A DNA stretch of 64,000 bases. Source: Anaerobacillus sp. CMMVII. GTDB lineage: Bacteria > Bacillota > Bacilli > Bacillales > Anaerobacillaceae. This document shows positions 7,945 to 36,912 of this stretch, piece after piece. Below the pieces are notes generated by a model. It saw only the letters and a program-made list of their open reading frames with translations. It was not told the DNA's origin and made no database searches. The stretch covers positions 186,001-250,000 of the forward strand of contig NZ_JACEHK010000008.1 of the NCBI RefSeq assembly GCF_025377685.1. The letters run 5' to 3'. Within the stretch, counting starts at the first letter, position 1; every line of letters begins with the position of its first letter. A program made the position numbers and the translations under genes.

Positions 7945-8475
7945 TTGAGGCTTTTTTTAACTGTTATATCAATGCTTTTCATGGGCGTTTCGTTTACTAC
8001 ATTTTTTAGCAATGAGGAGACGACTGCTACACTTTCTCCAGAATGTCTAGAGCAAGCAAAAATCAGAGACGAATTATTTAATCAAAATATAATGGCCGAC
8101 ATTATTTCGAGCTTTGATCTAGATATCGATAATTCCTATGATAAATTTACATTAAGAGAAATTGAAGCGGCTCACCTTCTATTTGGAGGAAGGGAAAATG
8201 ATACATATATACTTTCTCTGACAAAACTTTTTAACGAGATACCAAAAAGTACAAGAGGTACTCCAAGATTATTTGTAAGACCAGAAAATGCTTATTTTCT
8301 TTATAAAGAAACAACGAATACGAATGTAATGGTTCGCTTAAAGCTCGAATATGATAGCTGGGTAGTAGTGGAGGAAAAAAAGGTATCAGGTAAGCCAATT
8401 GAGCTTGAGCAATTAAAGTGCGAAAAGGATTTTTTGAAAATGAAAAACAACAAAATGGAAACGACTGCAAGCTAG
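7945..8475 (+). CDS. secreted or membrane-anchored protein, unknown
   Basis: About 176 residues starting at TTG 7945, 9 nt behind GAGGTG. An N-terminal hydrophobic segment (LFLTVISMLFMGVSFTTFF) acts as signal peptide or anchor. The exported part has PECLEQAKIRDELFNQNIMA and a C-terminal strand-rich half (VMVRLKLEYDSWVVVEEKK). No family is recognised. A terminator hairpin overlaps the stop codon, indicating a single-gene transcript. Confidence 0.6.
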   Translation: MRLFLTVISMLFMGVSFTTFFSNEETTATLSPECLEQAKIRDELFNQNIMADIISSFDLDIDNSYDKFTLREIEAAHLLFGGRENDTYILSLTKLFNEIPKSTRGTPRLFVRPENAYFLYKETTNTNVMVRLKLEYDSWVVVEEKKVSGKPIELEQLKCEKDFLKMKNNKMETTAS

Positions 8476-10459: not shown

Positions 10460-10640
10460 GGCTGTTTTCGTAGAGTTTGTGGCCTTTAGTTCGTCTTTTG
10501 AGAATAAATAAGCTTTTTGGGACAAATTAATTTGTCCCAATGGCTTATTTATTCTCAAAAGCTTCACGCAAAGCGTGAAAAACCAAGCATTCGCTTGGTT
10601 ACGACCTAAAAGAATTAGCAACAATCTTTTAGAAAATAGC
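10460..10640 (+). repeat. family R repeat, copy 1 (three hairpins in a terminal stem)
   Basis: About 181 bp. After a left end GGCTGTTTTCGTAGAGTTTG come a long hairpin (TTTTGAGAATAAATAAGC ... GCTTATTTATTCTCAAAA), a short one (TTCACGCAAAGCGTGAA) and a third (AACCAAGCATTCGCTTGGTT), then ACGACCTAAAAG, which pairs with the left CTTTAGTTCGT. Copies 2 to 4 have the same order. It fills most of the gene-free interval 10371-10697. Confidence 0.85.
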
Positions 10641-10697
10641 AAAAAATAGCTAGCTACTGCAAATGGCTTAGTAATTGCAAGAAGAAGGGAGAAGAAA

Positions 10698-11600
10698 ATG
10701 ACGTTAGTATTAAACGGTATTAAAAAGAAGTTTGAGAATGACTATGCTGTTAATGATATATCTCTTCAAGTAGCACGGGGAGAAATGTTTGGGATGCTAG
10801 GGGCAAATGGAGCAGGTAAGACTACTTCCTTTCGGATGATTCTCGGGCTACTTGATCCAACAGAAGGATCTGTTACTTGGGATGGAGAACGGATCACTTA
10901 TAAACGCACTCATTTAGTCGGATATTTACCAGAAGAACGAGGGCTATTTCCGAAACTGACTGTAAAAGAACAGCTAATCTATTTAATGAGATTAAAAGGT
11001 ATGAATAAGCCTGAGATTATCAAAGAAATGCGCAATTGGCTTGAGCGCTTTCAAGTCCCAGAATATGAAAATAAGAAAGTTGAAGAACTATCCAAAGGGA
11101 ATCAACAAAAAATTCAATTTATGGCTGCAGTTTTACATAAACCGGAACTACTAATACTAGATGAGCCTTTTAGCGGACTTGACCCTGTCAATTCGGATAT
11201 GTTAAAGAAAGCGGTGCTTGACCTTCAGCGGGAAGGGACGACAATTGTTTTCTCTAGTCATCAAATGAGAAATGTAGAAGAACTATGTGAAGATCTACTT
11301 ATGTTAAAAAAGGGGAAACCGGTGCTTCATGGAAGTTTAAGAGAAATTAAACGTTCATACGGTATGAAAAGTATTAGTATCCGTGCTGATTACGACTTAG
11401 ACTTTCTAAAGGCGGTAAATGGTGTCTTATCATTGGAAAAATCCAAGGACGGCGCAACTGTGAAAGTGGAAAACGAAAAGGTGGCAGAAGATGTTTTTCG
11501 AATGATTATGGAAAAAGGTTTTGTTCGGAAGTTTGAAGTCGAAGAGCCTTCTTTACATGACATTTTCATCGATAAAGTTGGGGGTGACGCTGATGAATAA
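10698..11600 (+). CDS. ABC transporter ATP-binding protein, NatA/YhaQ type
   Basis: 300-residue ATPase of an ABC-2 exporter. Walker A is GANGAGKTT (about residue 34), the Q-loop region is GYLPEERGLFPKLTV, the signature is ELSKGNQQK, Walker B is LLILDEPFSGLD, and the switch His is in FSSHQM. The C-terminal 90 residues form the extra domain seen in YhaQ and NatA. It overlaps the permease gene by 8 nt, so the two are translationally coupled. By homology the pair exports ions or small toxic compounds; the substrate is not known here. Confidence 0.88.
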   Translation: MTLVLNGIKKKFENDYAVNDISLQVARGEMFGMLGANGAGKTTSFRMILGLLDPTEGSVTWDGERITYKRTHLVGYLPEERGLFPKLTVKEQLIYLMRLKGMNKPEIIKEMRNWLERFQVPEYENKKVEELSKGNQQKIQFMAAVLHKPELLILDEPFSGLDPVNSDMLKKAVLDLQREGTTIVFSSHQMRNVEELCEDLLMLKKGKPVLHGSLREIKRSYGMKSISIRADYDLDFLKAVNGVLSLEKSKDGATVKVENEKVAEDVFRMIMEKGFVRKFEVEEPSLHDIFIDKVGGDADE

Positions 11601-12896
11601 TTTCTGGATAACAGTCGCTCATACGGCAGGAAAAAGACTTAAATCAAAAGCCTTTATGTGGTCCACCATTATTATCTGTGTCATAGTAATTGGATTAATG
11701 AATATCGAAAACATCGTGAATGTTTTTTCAGGGAACGATGAAAAAGGTGAAAAAACGACTGTTGCAGTTGTAAGTGAAATAGAAAACTCCGAACTTGCAG
11801 AAATGCTGATTTCATTTGAAGAAAGTGAATTTGACTATCTGAAGTATACTGATGGAGACACAAATTCAGCTAAAGAAGCAGCAGAAGAGGGGACATTTGA
11901 TTTTGTACTTGCCTTATCTGGAGACATTTTACACCTAGAAGCCGAACTGTTTGGTGCAGGTACAGATTTTATGTTGGGGCAACATGTTAGAATGGATATT
12001 CAACGGATGAAGGAGACTTTAGTTACGAATGAACTTGGATTAAATCAAGAGGAACTAGCCATGATTTACAATCCAATCACATTTCGGGAATTACCTCTTA
12101 CTGAAAATGGAGAAGTGAAAACAGAGGAAAGCCATATGCAATCTTATTGGATGGTTTATGGTCTTGTATTTGCAATCTATATGATTATTATCTTATTTGG
12201 TTCGATGATTGCTACTGAGGTAGCAACAGAAAAATCCTCTAGGGTAATGGAACTTATTGTCTCAAGTGTTAACCCAGTAACACAAATGTTTGGGAAAATC
12301 ATCGGGATAGGGATTTCAGGATTCGTTAATATTTTGTGTATTGTAGCTGCGGCTATTGTTGGTTATAAGATTAGTGGTGCGGATTACCTCGACACGATGC
12401 TTCGTGACGTAATTGACTTGTCTCTGTTAGGGTATGCCATTCTGCTTATTATTTTAGGATATATTTTATACGGTGGAGTAGCAGCAATGCTAGGGGCTCT
12501 AGTAAGTCGCGCAGAAGAAGTGAACCAAGCGCTACAGCCATTAATTTTTCTGGCGATGATCGCATTTTTCATCTCAATGTTTGGCCTTAATGTACCAGAG
12601 GCAACCTTCATAAAGGTACTATCTTATATACCTTTCTTTACGCCACAGTTGTTATTCCTTCGAATGGGAATGACTACGGTACCAACTTGGGAGATTTTTG
12701 TCATTCTTAGTATTCTCATTGTTAGTGCCTTTTGATTAATGTATTGGCTGCACGCATCTATAAAGGCGGAGTGCTCATGTATGGAACGTTTTCACTTAAA
12801 GGCAGTATTAAGCAGGCCCTAAGATTAGGTAAAAAGAAATTTAATAGACATTTGTTCTTAGTTCCCCAGAATTACTTTAGGGGACTATTTTTTTAG
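11593..12896 (+). pseudogene. ABC-2 type permease, NatB/YhaP type, frameshifted near the end
   Basis: Partner of the preceding ATPase. ATG 11593 begins MNNFWITVAHTAGKRLKSKA, followed by helix 1, a large extracytoplasmic domain (about residues 50-190), and five more helices with EVATEKSSRVMELIVSSVNP, the conserved ABC-2 loop. At a run of four T (12730-12733) the frame ends early. With one more T the protein continues LINVLAARIYKGGVLMYGTF and KGSIKQALRLGKKK, the normal family C-terminus. The end is uncertain because the restored frame runs into the terminator. It is probably functional if the base loss is an error. Confidence 0.8.
12858..12894 (+). terminator. rho-independent terminator of the ABC exporter operon
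   Basis: AGTTCCCC pairs with GGGGACT around a 12-nt loop, followed by T7. Confidence 0.8.
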
Positions 12897-17917: not shown

Positions 17918-18373
17918 ATGTCTAACACTACTTTAAATAATTATAAGAAAACGATTGAGTATTTGTTGACTTTAAAAGGAGTGCCTCAAGAAACATTACT
18001 TATTCCAATACATGCAGACAAATGGTCTGTTAGAGAAATCATTGGCCATCTTTTCTACTGGGATAAGTTTATTTTAGAGCAAATGGTGCCAAAGATTTGT
18101 AAGGAGGCGAAACTCCCACCATTTCCTGATCATGATGAATACAATACAAAAGCGATAAATTACATAACGAAATTTCAAACAACTAGTGACTTAATTGATG
18201 AATTTGCTTCAACAAGAGAGACATTATGTAATAAAATTGCTTCTGTCTCACCTGAGTTTAAATTTACAATTGGAAAAGGGAAAAGACAGTTTACTACTGA
18301 CAGCTTCTTAAAAATGTTTGTAAAACATGATGTTCACCACTTGAAACAAATTCAAGAATTTTTGAAGGGATAA
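17918..18373 (+). CDS. DinB-like four-helix-bundle protein
   Basis: About 151 residues of the DinB/YfiT superfamily. These are metal-binding four-helix proteins, often thiol-dependent transferases in Bacillus. Candidate metal His residues are in IIGHLFYWDKF and in the C-terminal KHDVHHLKQIQEF. The second of two adjacent ATG codons fits the spacing from AGGGGAG better. A GNAT gene starts 5 nt after the stop, so they are likely co-transcribed. Confidence 0.8.
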   Translation: MSNTTLNNYKKTIEYLLTLKGVPQETLLIPIHADKWSVREIIGHLFYWDKFILEQMVPKICKEAKLPPFPDHDEYNTKAINYITKFQTTSDLIDEFASTRETLCNKIASVSPEFKFTIGKGKRQFTTDSFLKMFVKHDVHHLKQIQEFLKG

Positions 18374-18378
18374 TCCTT

Positions 18379-18885
18379 ATGGAAATCTTACTTGAGAGAT
18401 TAACAGAGAATAATGCTGAGAAATTGTTTCAATTTGAGCAGGAAAATCGCGTGTTTTTTGAAACGATGGTCCCAAGTCGGGGTGATGAGTATTATCTTTA
18501 CGAAACATTTCTTAATAGACATCATGAAATACTAGAAGAGCAAAAAATCGGGAGTTGCCAATTTTATTTAATAATGGACTGCACAGGTTTGATACTAGGT
18601 AGAGTGAATCTAGTAGGTATCGACCGTGAAAATGTTTCTGCCCATATAGGTTACCGTGTTGGGGAACGGTATTTAGGGAAAGGTGTGGCAAAACAGGCAG
18701 TAGCAAAAATGCTAGAAGAAGCCAAGAACCAGCAGCTACGAACAATTTATGCAAAAACAACGAGTAACAATCTTGCCTCGCAAAAAGTATTGAAAAAAAA
18801 CTCTTTTCAACTCATTTCGAAAGATCAAAAAGAAGTAGAGTTTAATGGGGAAATGATCCAATTTTTCCATTACCAATGGAAGTAA
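18379..18885 (+). CDS. GNAT acetyltransferase, RimJ type
   Basis: 168 residues. The N-terminus MEILLERLTENNAEKLFQFE is typical of ribosomal-protein-type acetyltransferases. The central strand is LILGRVNLVGIDRENVSAHI, the acetyl-CoA loop is VGERYLGKGVAKQAVAKML, and NNLASQKVLKKNSFQL completes the domain. It starts 5 nt after the DinB-like gene and ends at a bidirectional terminator. Confidence 0.82.
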   Translation: MEILLERLTENNAEKLFQFEQENRVFFETMVPSRGDEYYLYETFLNRHHEILEEQKIGSCQFYLIMDCTGLILGRVNLVGIDRENVSAHIGYRVGERYLGKGVAKQAVAKMLEEAKNQQLRTIYAKTTSNNLASQKVLKKNSFQLISKDQKEVEFNGEMIQFFHYQWK

Positions 18886-18889
18886 TGGG

Positions 18890-18934
18890 AAAGCAGTACA
18901 AGTGGTTTTTTAGCCAGTTGTACTGCTTTTTTTA
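18890..18934. terminator. bidirectional terminator
   Basis: AAAGCAGTACAA and TTGTACTGCTTT around a 14-nt loop with flanking T and A runs, between converging genes. Confidence 0.9.
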
Positions 18935-20260
18935 GATACGCTTTAACATTGTTGGGCGTAGCGTAAGGGGTATGCCGATCTTGTGGCAGACAGTTACATA
19001 GTGCATTAAGGTTAGTAAAACAACACCGGTGTTCATGCCAATAATAATTCCATGCATTTGCAAGCTTGCCATTGAGCCTAGATAATACATTAGCAAGAAG
19101 GAGATAAATGTTGACCAGACGGCGTGCATTAAGGCATCCTTAACAAGTCCTAACCCGATTAAGTACGCTTGAAGTGGAATGACAAAGTAATGAAATAAAA
19201 AGTATGGAACCAACAGCTGTAAATAAACGACAGCAGGAGAATTTTTAAAAAATAGTCCTGTTAACGGTTCTGCAAAAAAGTAAAAAATGAAGGCTGCAGG
19301 TAGGCCGTATCCGAACGTGAGCTTCATTACTTTTACAAGCAGCTGTTGCAGCTTTTGATAATCATTTTTCGCATAAGCTTCAGCAACGGTTGGGATTAAA
19401 ACGATTAATAACGAATGGGCAATAAATGCCGGGAAAAAACCAATTGAAAACGCGACGCCAGCCAGTTTTCCAAATTGAGCAGTGGCCATAGCCTCTGTAA
19501 GTCCAGCATTTACAAGGGCTGCTTTAATTAAAAATGGCTTTATGGCAAATGTAACTGAATGAAATATTCGTACGCCCGTCATCGGAAGTGAAACAGCCAA
19601 CAGTCCATTTCTAACAGTTTTTCCATCAAGGGAAGCATGATCATCATATTTCTCAGATTTTAATTGAATAAAGAACATTGTTGCCATATAAGCAAATACT
19701 ACAAATTCACTTGCAATTAAAGTACATAAAGCAACCAAGAGAGCAAGCTCGTGCTCAAATTCAAATAGTTGGTAGACGATAACAAGTAACAGTAATTGCA
19801 TCGCTCTTCGTAAAAAATTCGAAATGGCGATTTTCCCCATCTGTTGTGAACCCATAAAATAGCCTCGAAATACTGAAGAAAAGGATATAATTGGGATTAG
19901 AATATAAACGAGTAATCGCACGTATGGATGATACTGATCAAAGACAGAAATATGTGGAACGAGAATTAACGAAGCTACTAAGAAAATGATGGCTATGATC
20001 GTCGCGATCCCTAATGCTTGAAGTAACATACTGCGATGAAATCGTTTTTCCTTTTCTGCGACAAACTTTGAAATAGAAATAGGAAGCTCCATACTTGCTA
20101 GTACTGCGATTAACATAACGGTTGGTAGGATGGACATATATAATCCTAATCCTTTTTCGCCAAGCTCTCTGGCTAAGACGATATTGATCACTAATTCAAG
20201 ACTTTCTCCTATAAAAGCAGCAATTGCTAGTAATATAACTCCTCTGAAAAACAACTTCAT
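18932..20260 (-). CDS. flippase of the MOP superfamily (SpoVB/polysaccharide type)
   Basis: About 442 residues with 12-14 helices. The first helix region ESLELVINIVLARELGEKGL and the later segments RGYFMGSQQMGKIAISNFLR and AFIAHSLLIVLIPTVAEAYA are typical of polysaccharide/lipid flippases of the MviN-PST-MATE superfamily. ATG 20260 follows AGGAG at a spacing of 9. In Bacillus such proteins move lipid-linked sugars across the membrane for envelope or spore cortex synthesis; the specific cargo is not evident. Confidence 0.8.
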   Translation of the reverse strand: MKLFFRGVILLAIAAFIGESLELVINIVLARELGEKGLGLYMSILPTVMLIAVLASMELPISISKFVAEKEKRFHRSMLLQALGIATIIAIIFLVASLILVPHISVFDQYHPYVRLLVYILIPIISFSSVFRGYFMGSQQMGKIAISNFLRRAMQLLLLVIVYQLFEFEHELALLVALCTLIASEFVVFAYMATMFFIQLKSEKYDDHASLDGKTVRNGLLAVSLPMTGVRIFHSVTFAIKPFLIKAALVNAGLTEAMATAQFGKLAGVAFSIGFFPAFIAHSLLIVLIPTVAEAYAKNDYQKLQQLLVKVMKLTFGYGLPAAFIFYFFAEPLTGLFFKNSPAVVYLQLLVPYFLFHYFVIPLQAYLIGLGLVKDALMHAVWSTFISFLLMYYLGSMASLQMHGIIIGMNTGVVLLTLMHYVTVCHKIGIPLTLRPTMLKRI

Positions 20261-30771: not shown

Positions 30772-30953
30772 TTGACACTCCCTATTTGATAATTAGTTTC
30801 TACTATATGTTTCGCTGCAACAAATCAAATTCCTCTTTAGTATGCTAAAAGGAGAGGTGTAAGAAAATAGTTTGGTCCTTTTGGCTATTTGAAAGCTGCA
30901 ATTTTAAAAATAGTCTATACTAATAATTAATAATGAAGCTAAGGAGGAAAATG

Positions 30954-31604
30954 ATGGTCCATAAAAAAAATGTAAGCATAAAAGTCTATGAAACAGCAAC
31001 CTTTGGAATGGGGTGATTTTGGGGGCCGGATGCTCAGTTTGGGCATTTACCTGGAGTACTTAGAACACGTGTTGGCTATGCAGGTGGAACTGCGGAAAAT
31101 CCTACATACCGAAACATGGGTGATCATACGGAAACGCTCGAGATAGATTTTGATCCAACCTTACTTTCATTCGAAGAGGTTGTTAAGCTTTTTTGGAAGA
31201 GCCATAATCCTAATCGAGCAAATTACCGTGATAGACAGTATATCTCGATATTCTTCTTTCATAATGAACAGCAAAAAGAAGTGCTAATCAAGGAAAAAAG
31301 AAGATTAGAAGGCTTGAAAAATATTGAGATAGAAACAGAAATTGTCGCTTATTCAAGATTTTACCTAGCAGAAATGTACCACCAAAAGTATTATTTGAAA
31401 AGGTATCCAGATGCCGTTGAAAAGGTGTACCAATTTTACAAGTCTGAAGAAGAATTCATGAATTCTACATTGGTAGCAAGACTAAATGGCTTTGTAAAAG
31501 GGTATGGGAAGTTAGCAGATATTAGAAAGGAAGTCGAGCATTGGCATCTAAGTGAGGATGCTCGTGGAAAAGTGCTCGATGTAATTAGCAGCATTAAATG
31601 GTAG
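30954..31604 (+). CDS. msrA: peptide methionine sulfoxide reductase MsrA, candidate selenoprotein
   Basis: MsrA reduces methionine-S-sulfoxide in proteins through a catalytic Cys in a G-C-F-W-G motif. Here the frame from ATG 30954 (behind AAGGAGG) reads TATFGMG, then TGA at 31014-31016 (codon 21), then [20 protein letters not shown] and [20 protein letters not shown], and stays open to a TAG at 31602-31604. Translation upstream and downstream is fully MsrA-like, so TGA stands exactly where the catalytic Cys belongs. Selenocysteine MsrA proteins are known in some Firmicutes. A SECIS-like hairpin follows the TGA. The C-terminal 70 residues ([20 protein letters not shown]) are an extension of this subgroup. 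Alternatives are a C/T-to-A base error or a stop mutation. No sel genes lie in the window. Confidence 0.75.
31026..31054 (+). promoter_or_regulatory. SECIS-like hairpin after the msrA TGA
   Basis: Upper stem ATGCTC (31030-31035) pairs with GGGCAT (31041-31046, one G-U pair) around the loop AGTTT, which has G in second position. A lower stem CCGG (31026-31029) pairs with CCTGG (31050-31054) with a bulged T. The apical loop begins 19 nt after the TGA. Bacterial SECIS elements lie inside the coding region, with the loop about 16-37 nt after the UGA and a G early in the loop, so the geometry fits. SelB binding is inference. Confidence 0.6.
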
Positions 31605-31618
31605 GTAGGTGTAGTGAA

Positions 31619-32566
31619 ATGCAAGCAACTTTTGCTGGGGGGCGATCCTGGTACTTAGTTCCGATATTCAAAAAAAGCAGAGGTGTGATCGAAGTTCTGT
31701 CAGGCTACACGGGTGGCCATATCGAAAATCCGAGCTATAAAAATGTTCAGACAGGAACTACTGGTCATTATGAAGCTATCCAAATGGTATACGACCCTAA
31801 CGAGATTTCATATCAAGAACTCCTTAATATATATTGGAAGCAAATAAACCCAACTGATCCTAACGGGCAATTCAAAGACCGAGGGAGCCAATTCAAAACT
31901 GCGATCTTTTATCATAATGAAGAACAAAGATTGTTGGCAGAATCTTTCAAAACAATGCTCTTTGAGGCAAAACATTTTTCTGAACCGATTGTTACAGCTA
32001 TTTTGCCATTTTCAAGATTTTATCGTGCGGCGGACTATCTTCAAGATTTCTTCAGTACAAATCCGTTTCGTTATAAACTTTATGTGGAAAGATCTGGGAG
32101 AGAAAAAGGACTTAAGGAAATCTGGAAGGATCAACTACAAGATGAAGAATTGCTACAAAGGTTAACAACCCTTCAATATCAAGTGACTCAATTAAATTAC
32201 ACCGAACCGCCTTTTGAGAATAAATACTGGGATAATCAGCGTGAAGGTCTTTACGTTGACATTGTATCAGGTGAGCCTTTATTTCTTTCGGTAGATCAAT
32301 ATGACTCTGGTTGTGGATGGCCAAGCTTTACAAAGCCAATCGATGAAAAAAGTTTGAGCGAAGAGATGGACGTTAGTCATGACATGGTTAGAATTGAGGT
32401 TCGAAGCACAAAAGCAAATTCCCACTTAGGGCATGTATTTCCTGATGGACCTAAAGAACAAGGGGGATTAAGGTATTGTATTAATTCCGCAGCACTAAGG
32501 TTTATTCCAAAAGAGTCTTTAGAAAAGGAAGGGTACGGGCAATACATAAAACACTTTTCTAAATAG
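31619..32566 (+). CDS. msrB: MsrA-MsrB fusion with degenerate MsrA domain
   Basis: 315 residues from ATG 31619. The N-terminal MsrA domain (about 1-160) keeps the fold motifs [20 protein letters not shown] and [20 protein letters not shown], but the catalytic GCFWC is GRSWY, the usual V-C-S/T-G is NVQTG, and the conserved Y-H-Q-D-Y is YLQDFF. It should be inactive. The C-terminal MsrB domain (about 185-310) is intact: [10 protein letters not shown]-type [24 protein letters not shown] and the catalytic Cys in [14 protein letters not shown]. It reduces methionine-R-sulfoxide. It starts 14 nt after the candidate selenoprotein MsrA, so the pair probably forms one operon covering both sulfoxide isomers. 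Confidence 0.85.
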
Positions 32567-35505: not shown

Positions 35506-35708
35506 GCTAGTAGGAGGTAGGTATGCAAAAAATTAAAAAACAAGACATAAACCATTTATATGAAACACAAAAAGTTGTCTTGTATTGGTTATTAGGAATG
35601 ATTTATCATTTTTGGCCAGAAAACCCCCACTTCAAGGAGTTTACGAGTAAGTGGGGGATGAATGGCTATTTTTTTCACAAAACCAGAACGTACGATCTTG
35701 TTTTGTGG

Positions 35709-35714
35709 TATAAT
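35709..35714 (+). promoter_or_regulatory. extended -10 promoter of tnpB
   Basis: TATAAT preceded by TGG (TGnTATAAT pattern), 25 bp before the tnpB start codon. No good -35 box is seen. Confidence 0.5.
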
Positions 35715-35739
35715 ATGGTTAGAGAGTGAGGTGAAAAAT

Positions 35740-36912
35740 ATGGTTGTTAAGAAAGCCTATAAATATCGTATCTACCCAACAAAGTCACAACTAGAGCTCA
35801 TCAATAAAAACATGGGATGTGCGCGTTTCGTGTTTAACTTCTTCCTTGCCAAGCAAAAACAGAAAGATGCCTATTGGTACATCGTGGAAGAAATGAAGCA
35901 ATCCGGGCAGCTTCCTACAAATGCTTGGAAAGGTGAATTCTTTAAAAAATACGACTCGGTAAAAATGGTTCGTTTGTTAAAGAAACACTATCCGTTTTTA
36001 AAAGAGGTTGATAGTATTTCTCTCCAAAAATCCGTAGAAAACTTAAATAATGCGTATACTCGCTACTACAAAAAACAAGCCAACGCTCCTCGGTTTAAGT
36101 CAAAGAAGAACAAGATTCAATCGTACACCACAAAACAGACCAATGGTAACATCATGGTTTTGGAACGTTACATCAAGTTACCAAAACTCGGACTCGTTCG
36201 TTTTGCGAAAAGTCGTGAAGTGAACGGTCGAATTATAAATGCGACGATTCGGCGCAGTCCAAGTGGGAAATACTTCATTAGTATTTTAGTAGAAACAAAG
36301 GTCGAAAAACTGCCTGAAACCCATTCATCTGTCGGTGTCGATGTCGGTCTTAAAGCTTTTGCGACTCTTTCGGATGGTACTGTCTATCAAAATCCTAAAT
36401 GGTTTCATTCGCTTGAACAAAAGTTAGTAAAGGCTCAACAAATCCTTTCCAGACGAAACACCGGTTCATCCAATTGGTACAAACAACGAAAAAAGGTTGC
36501 TCTGATTCATGAAAAGATTATGAACGCTCGTACAGACTTCTTACAAAAACTTTCAACCAATCTTGTCAAAAACCACGACATCATTGGGATGGAAGATCTT
36601 TCGGTACAAAACATGGCAAAGAATAAAAACCTTGCCAAGGCCATTAGTGAAGCTTCATGGTATCAATTTCGTCAAATGCTTGAATACAAAGCAAGGTGGT
36701 ATGGCAAACAAGTAGTAGTAGTCGCTAAAAACTACCCAAGTAGTCAGCTGTGTTCGTGTTGTGGCTACAAGAATAAAGACGTGAAACATCTGGCGTTGCG
36801 TGAATGGGAATGTCCATCATGTAGGAGCTATCACCAAAGAGATGTAAACGCAGGAATGAATCTTCGTAATGAAGCATTACGATTAACTGTCGGGACGATA
36901 GGGATCGCCTAA
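35740..36912 (+). CDS. tnpB: TnpB, IS605-type RNA-guided nuclease
   Basis: 390 residues. The N-terminal OrfB helix-turn-helix is [20 protein letters not shown]. The RuvC-like motifs are intact: Asp in [18 protein letters not shown], Glu in [16 protein letters not shown], and the last Asp in [17 protein letters not shown]. The zinc finger has CSCCGYKN and ECPSC. TnpB proteins use an RNA transcribed from the 3' end of the element to cut DNA, which favours retention of the element. All catalytic residues are present and the frame is undamaged, so it is potentially active. ATG 35740 follows GTGAGGTG. Confidence 0.92.

Follow-up and report, generated by a model that had tools for sequence, protein, structure and literature searches.

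A Predicted Selenocysteine-Containing Methionine-S-Sulfoxide Reductase in Anaerobacillus and the Occurrence of Its Orthologues in Bacillales

Introduction

Does the TGA codon that interrupts an msrA reading frame of Anaerobacillus sp. CMMVII specify selenocysteine (Sec), or is it damage to an ordinary gene? The window, by which we mean the whole stretch of 64,000 nucleotides that was analysed (contig NZ_JACEHK010000008.1, positions 186,001 to 250,000), holds this frame at 30954–31604 on the plus strand and belongs to a genome (G000) of 4.87 Mb in 21 contigs. A preliminary description had proposed a candidate selenoprotein methionine sulfoxide reductase A (MsrA) and considered that it would be rare in a Bacillus-like genome. 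Sec-MsrA has been recognised as a family of selenoproteins (PMC13188914). A survey covering over 5,200 genomes does not place it among the 20 most frequent selenoprotein families of bacteria (PMC5029168). Its presence in clostridia, mentioned in the preliminary description, is exemplified by CoMsrA of Clostridium (Alkaliphilus) oremlandii. This 1-Sec MsrA has an activity 20-fold above that of its Cys form and is recycled by glutaredoxin, not thioredoxin, with the helical domain being required (PMC4333827).

Results

The msrA frame comprises 216 codons, and its sole interruption is the TGA at 31014–31016 (plus strand), codon 21, which occupies the catalytic position of the GCFWG motif; the terminal codon is TAG 31602–31604. 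A Shine-Dalgarno-like AAGGAGG (30941–30947, plus strand) is spaced 6 nt from the ATG at 30954 and 3 nt from an alternative ATG at 30951. According to Pfam, PMSR covers residues 14–150 of the read-through product (E 2.6e-39), and MsrA_helical (PF20939), described there as "Selenoprotein methionine sulfoxide reductase A, helical domain", covers residues 165–202 (E 1.9e-5) with 24.8 bits, barely above the 23.7 cut-off. The frame is therefore MsrA-like on either side of the TGA, as had been proposed. Sequence conservation among the aligned orthologues continues 3′ of the TGA through the final residue, W216, which is invariant. None of the 216 codons specifies Cys, and hence there is no resolving Cys, which is what defines the 1-Sec type. 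Elsewhere in the window TGA is an ordinary stop, ending 5 of the 35 ORFs that are 200 aa or longer, in keeping with the standard code assumed earlier. An Rfam search at the msrA locus itself gave no match, and promoter and terminator scans remained at chance level.

Among solved structures, those of CoMsrA (4lwj and 4u66) are the best matches and align over the full length (E 6e-70). Residue 21 pairs with the catalytic Cys16 of CoMsrA, so the TGA does lie exactly at the catalytic Cys of the family. Ten active-site or adjacent positions of CoMsrA were checked (Gly15–Gly19, Tyr47, Glu55, Tyr90, His137, and Tyr140) and all were conserved, with Phe17, Trp18, Tyr47, Glu55, Tyr90, His137, and Tyr140 corresponding to F22, W23, Y52, E60, Y96, H143, and Y146 here.

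The lack of sel genes in the genome had been named as the observation that would speak against Sec, and we found SelA, SelB, SelD, and tRNA-Sec all present, clustered within about 11 kb of contig C6, so that the full Sec trait is present. The tRNA-Sec gene (8259–8351, minus strand) scored 58.6 bits, above the gathering score, and has the anticodon TCA; it is accompanied by SelB (10489–12360, 349 bits), SelD (G000:C6, 15730–16659, minus strand, 401 bits; also L065:10629-11627 and just upstream), and SelA (18062–19156, 479.8 bits). The SelD gene carries an in-frame TGA of its own within GKGG-U-GCK, the usual Sec/Cys site of SelD, and the genome therefore has at least two selenoprotein genes. Some relatives possess two tRNA-Sec genes, namely G003 (C1:3587722-3587814 and 3725088-3725180) and G055 (C12:159738 and 165261).

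An odd tRNA-like gene was also observed 298 nt from tRNA-Sec (L065:3651-3720, equivalent to G000:C6:8650-8719; Rfam tRNA, 54.8 bits). It has good acceptor, D, and T arms and an anticodon arm shortened to a 4-bp stem and a 5-nt loop (TTCAC), and CCA is not encoded. Only two of the 199 genomes sampled from the order carry it. The copy of the congener G003 (L153:1567-1636) is 89% identical and shows compensated changes in the T-stem (GCGGG/CCCGC to GTAGG/CCTAC), so the gene looks maintained.

A putative bacterial SECIS hairpin with a 9-bp stem was located at 31028–31048 on the plus strand, with its loop 20 nt after the UGA. Its 7-bp core stem pairs 31030–31036 with 31040–31046 around the apical loop GUU (31037–31039), and the sequence common to the Sec loci 3′ of the UGA is GAUGCYC-x-[GUU]-y-GGGCAU or a close variant of it. 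Across 33 distinct sequences, 93.9% of cells were paired, versus 19–42% in a control with the partner strand slid by 1–3 columns. Nineteen cells were altered on both sides versus 6.8 in shuffles, and none of 500 shuffles reached 19. Codon choice follows the pairing. At codon 7 after Sec, Arg is CGG in all 29 Sec loci that have it, and the following Phe is TTC (28; the remaining one is Tyr); after Gln (CAG) at the same codon, Phe is TTT in 14 of 18, and TTT occurs only with CAG. The closing pair thereby stays G-C or A-U. Where Ala becomes Gly, a C-G pair of the stem turns into G-C or G-U. Among the Cys orthologues, seven of eight form just 1–4 of the 7 core pairs, so that the hairpin is mostly lost. 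The loop-closing pair is an A-C mismatch in five Sec loci, one of which (G002) lacks a G at loop position 1 of the core model. Folded alone, the single sequence outperformed shuffles only to a modest degree (z about −1.5), which is unsurprising because the hairpin is so short.

How far the gene extends in the order was investigated by searching 397 sampled genomes, at E up to 1e-50, with a profile built from ten orthologues. The MsrA subfamily was found in 56 of them, and the catalytic codon, read in all 56, was TGA in 48 and TGC or TGT in 8. Since 48 of 56 orthologues have TGA at the catalytic codon, its position here is not a matter of chance. All 48 TGA genomes contained tRNA-Sec, in contrast to none of the 8 Cys genomes; that is, Cys replaces Sec in every orthologue from a genome without tRNA-Sec. 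The co-occurrence does not amount to 56 independent events, because the U/C switches on the tree are few: parsimony gives five, with good support for only a few and at least one on well-supported branches. When U/C was compared with tRNA-Sec by independent pairs, the 1–3 pairs available were too few to reach significance on their own. The TGA carriers make up about 12% of the sampled species and are spread over 20 genera. Some TGA copies look damaged, including one with a frameshift (G015), one with an extra TAA (G313), and one with a second TGA (G253). A scan of named genomes used a Cys-containing pattern, and the matches listed were mostly Cys homologues; the two TGA carriers among them, Alkalihalobacillus deserti and Sutcliffiella horikoshii, are both Bacillaceae. 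The distribution figures were thus taken from the profile search instead.

Downstream on the plus strand lies an MsrA–MsrB fusion gene (PMSR and SelR domains) at 31619–32566; its start may be 31598, and the likely start, 31619, is 15 nt past the msrA stop. The MsrB half is intact and retains RYCINSA. In the MsrA half the catalytic Cys codon is replaced by CGA (Arg) at 31643–31645 (plus strand; FAGG-R-SWY), and Cys occupies this site in all 29 closest homologues in the order. The fusion of a congener (G001, L063:932-1852) also has Arg (CGA) at this site. The G001 protein clusters with the intact one of G056 (SH-aLRT 98) and not with that of the window, a placement to be read cautiously given long branches on both; the loss of Cys in G001 therefore looks independent. 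The Cys of the fusion is retained in other Sec-MsrA genomes (G016, G056, and G223), so its loss is not obligatory. We also considered whether the CGA derives from a Sec TGA in an ancestor; this is unsupported, since the 29 nearest homologues have TGC or TGT. The genome also encodes a third, intact MsrA (G000:C8:35656-36111). Separately, the ORF at 35662–36912 appears by eye to encode a TnpB/OrfB-like protein of an IS605-type element, with paired CxxC near the C-terminus.

Discussion

Taken together, the frame and the position of its UGA, the active-site residues, the covarying hairpin, the complete sel set, and the co-occurrence with tRNA-Sec indicate that this gene almost certainly encodes a selenoprotein methionine-S-sulfoxide reductase, with UGA 31014–31016 decoded as Sec via the SECIS hairpin. 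The candidate put forward earlier is thus well supported. From these sequence features we infer that Sec is inserted, that the protein contains selenium and is enzymatically active, and that it is regenerated although it has no resolving Cys. In translation, the hairpin at 31028–31048, lying within the coding sequence, would recruit Sec-tRNA-Sec and SelB, which would read the UGA as Sec. The selenol of the resulting 216-residue 1-Sec enzyme would attack methionine-S-sulfoxide, and the C-terminal helical domain would hold the active site as in the C. oremlandii enzyme. Regeneration would probably rely on glutaredoxin or on dimerisation, the routes reported for CoMsrA. The same chemistry as CoMsrA is our best inference.

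If the TGA had arisen in a normal Cys-MsrA gene by nonsense mutation or sequencing error, leaving a pseudogene or an artefact, just one change, from TGY to TGA, would be needed at a residue that is normally Cys in this family, and the preliminary description had reported other damaged genes nearby. Such an accident is scarcely credible when TGA stands at the same codon in 48 genomes of 20 genera, when conservation runs from the TGA to the last residue, when the hairpin covaries, and when the full sel set is present. It is also highly improbable that a suppressor or variant tRNA inserts Cys or Trp at the UGA. In principle, UGA is known to be recoded to amino acids other than Sec, and the tRNA-like gene with TTCAC in its shortened anticodon loop adjoins tRNA-Sec; against this, that gene occurs in 2 of 199 genomes whereas TGA-MsrA occurs in 48 of 397, decoding does not normally use an anticodon loop of 5 nt, and TGA remains an ordinary stop elsewhere in the window. 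The presence of SelA, SelB, and SelD, and the conservation of a hairpin of the kind bound by SelB, likewise argue for Sec.

A different question is whether a readable Sec gene is much used. The cell might rely on the Cys-MsrA at G000:C8:35656-36111 while the locus begins to decay. The intactness of that third MsrA, the apparent inactivity of the neighbouring fused MsrA domain after loss of its catalytic Cys, and the broken orthologues of G015 and G313 fit such a course. In the genome of the window, however, the frame, the Shine-Dalgarno sequence, the hairpin, and all active-site residues of Sec-MsrA are intact, and we regard a little-used gene as very unlikely. The state of the neighbouring fusion permits a tentative suggestion, about which we are rather doubtful: Sec-MsrA may have relieved the MsrA half of the fusion from selection, and the genus may have lost the catalytic Cys twice independently (Arg, CGA), with MsrB intact. 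If true, the locus would be a split repair pair, the selenoenzyme serving the S-sulfoxide and the fusion the R-sulfoxide only.

Sec-MsrA is common among Bacillus-like bacteria and is not confined to an anaerobic clostridium. The enzyme type is already known; the expectation of rarity in a Bacillus-like genome was wrong, as the carriers found across the order demonstrate. This distribution suggests an established place for Sec-MsrA in the order's selenoproteome, as opposed to a mere oddity of clostridia. Gene callers stop at the UGA or begin after it, and Sec-MsrA is therefore easily mis-annotated in these genomes. In the open-access papers searched, we found no description of Sec-MsrA as widespread in Bacillales, and no priority is claimed. 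Cultivable carriers such as S. horikoshii and A. deserti are suited to studying why an oxidative-repair enzyme retains selenium.

Compared with known systems, the hairpin shows no essential difference from the bacterial SECIS model, which has a loop of 3–9 nt, a stem of 4–16 bp, G in the first two loop positions, and a distance of 16–37 nt from the UGA (PMC13188914); here the loop is 3 nt with G first, the stem 7–9 bp, and the distance 20 nt. The fusion shares PMSR and SelR, and an intact MsrB half, with bifunctional MsrA–MsrB fusions and differs in having Arg instead of the MsrA catalytic Cys. Cys-type helical-domain MsrAs of Paenibacillus, Planococcus, and haloarchaea belong to the same subfamily (among the matches listed, mostly 42–55% identity and often full length) and have TGC or TGT at the catalytic codon where TGA stands here. 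The closest counterpart is CoMsrA (PDB 4lwj, 4lwk, and 4u66; PMC4333827), with which the predicted protein shares the two-domain architecture, Sec at the catalytic position, and the absence of any other Cys. Unlike that enzyme of an anaerobic clostridium, to which 88 of 206 aligned residues (43%) are identical, it belongs to a Bacillus-like host and is followed immediately downstream by an MsrA–MsrB fusion gene.
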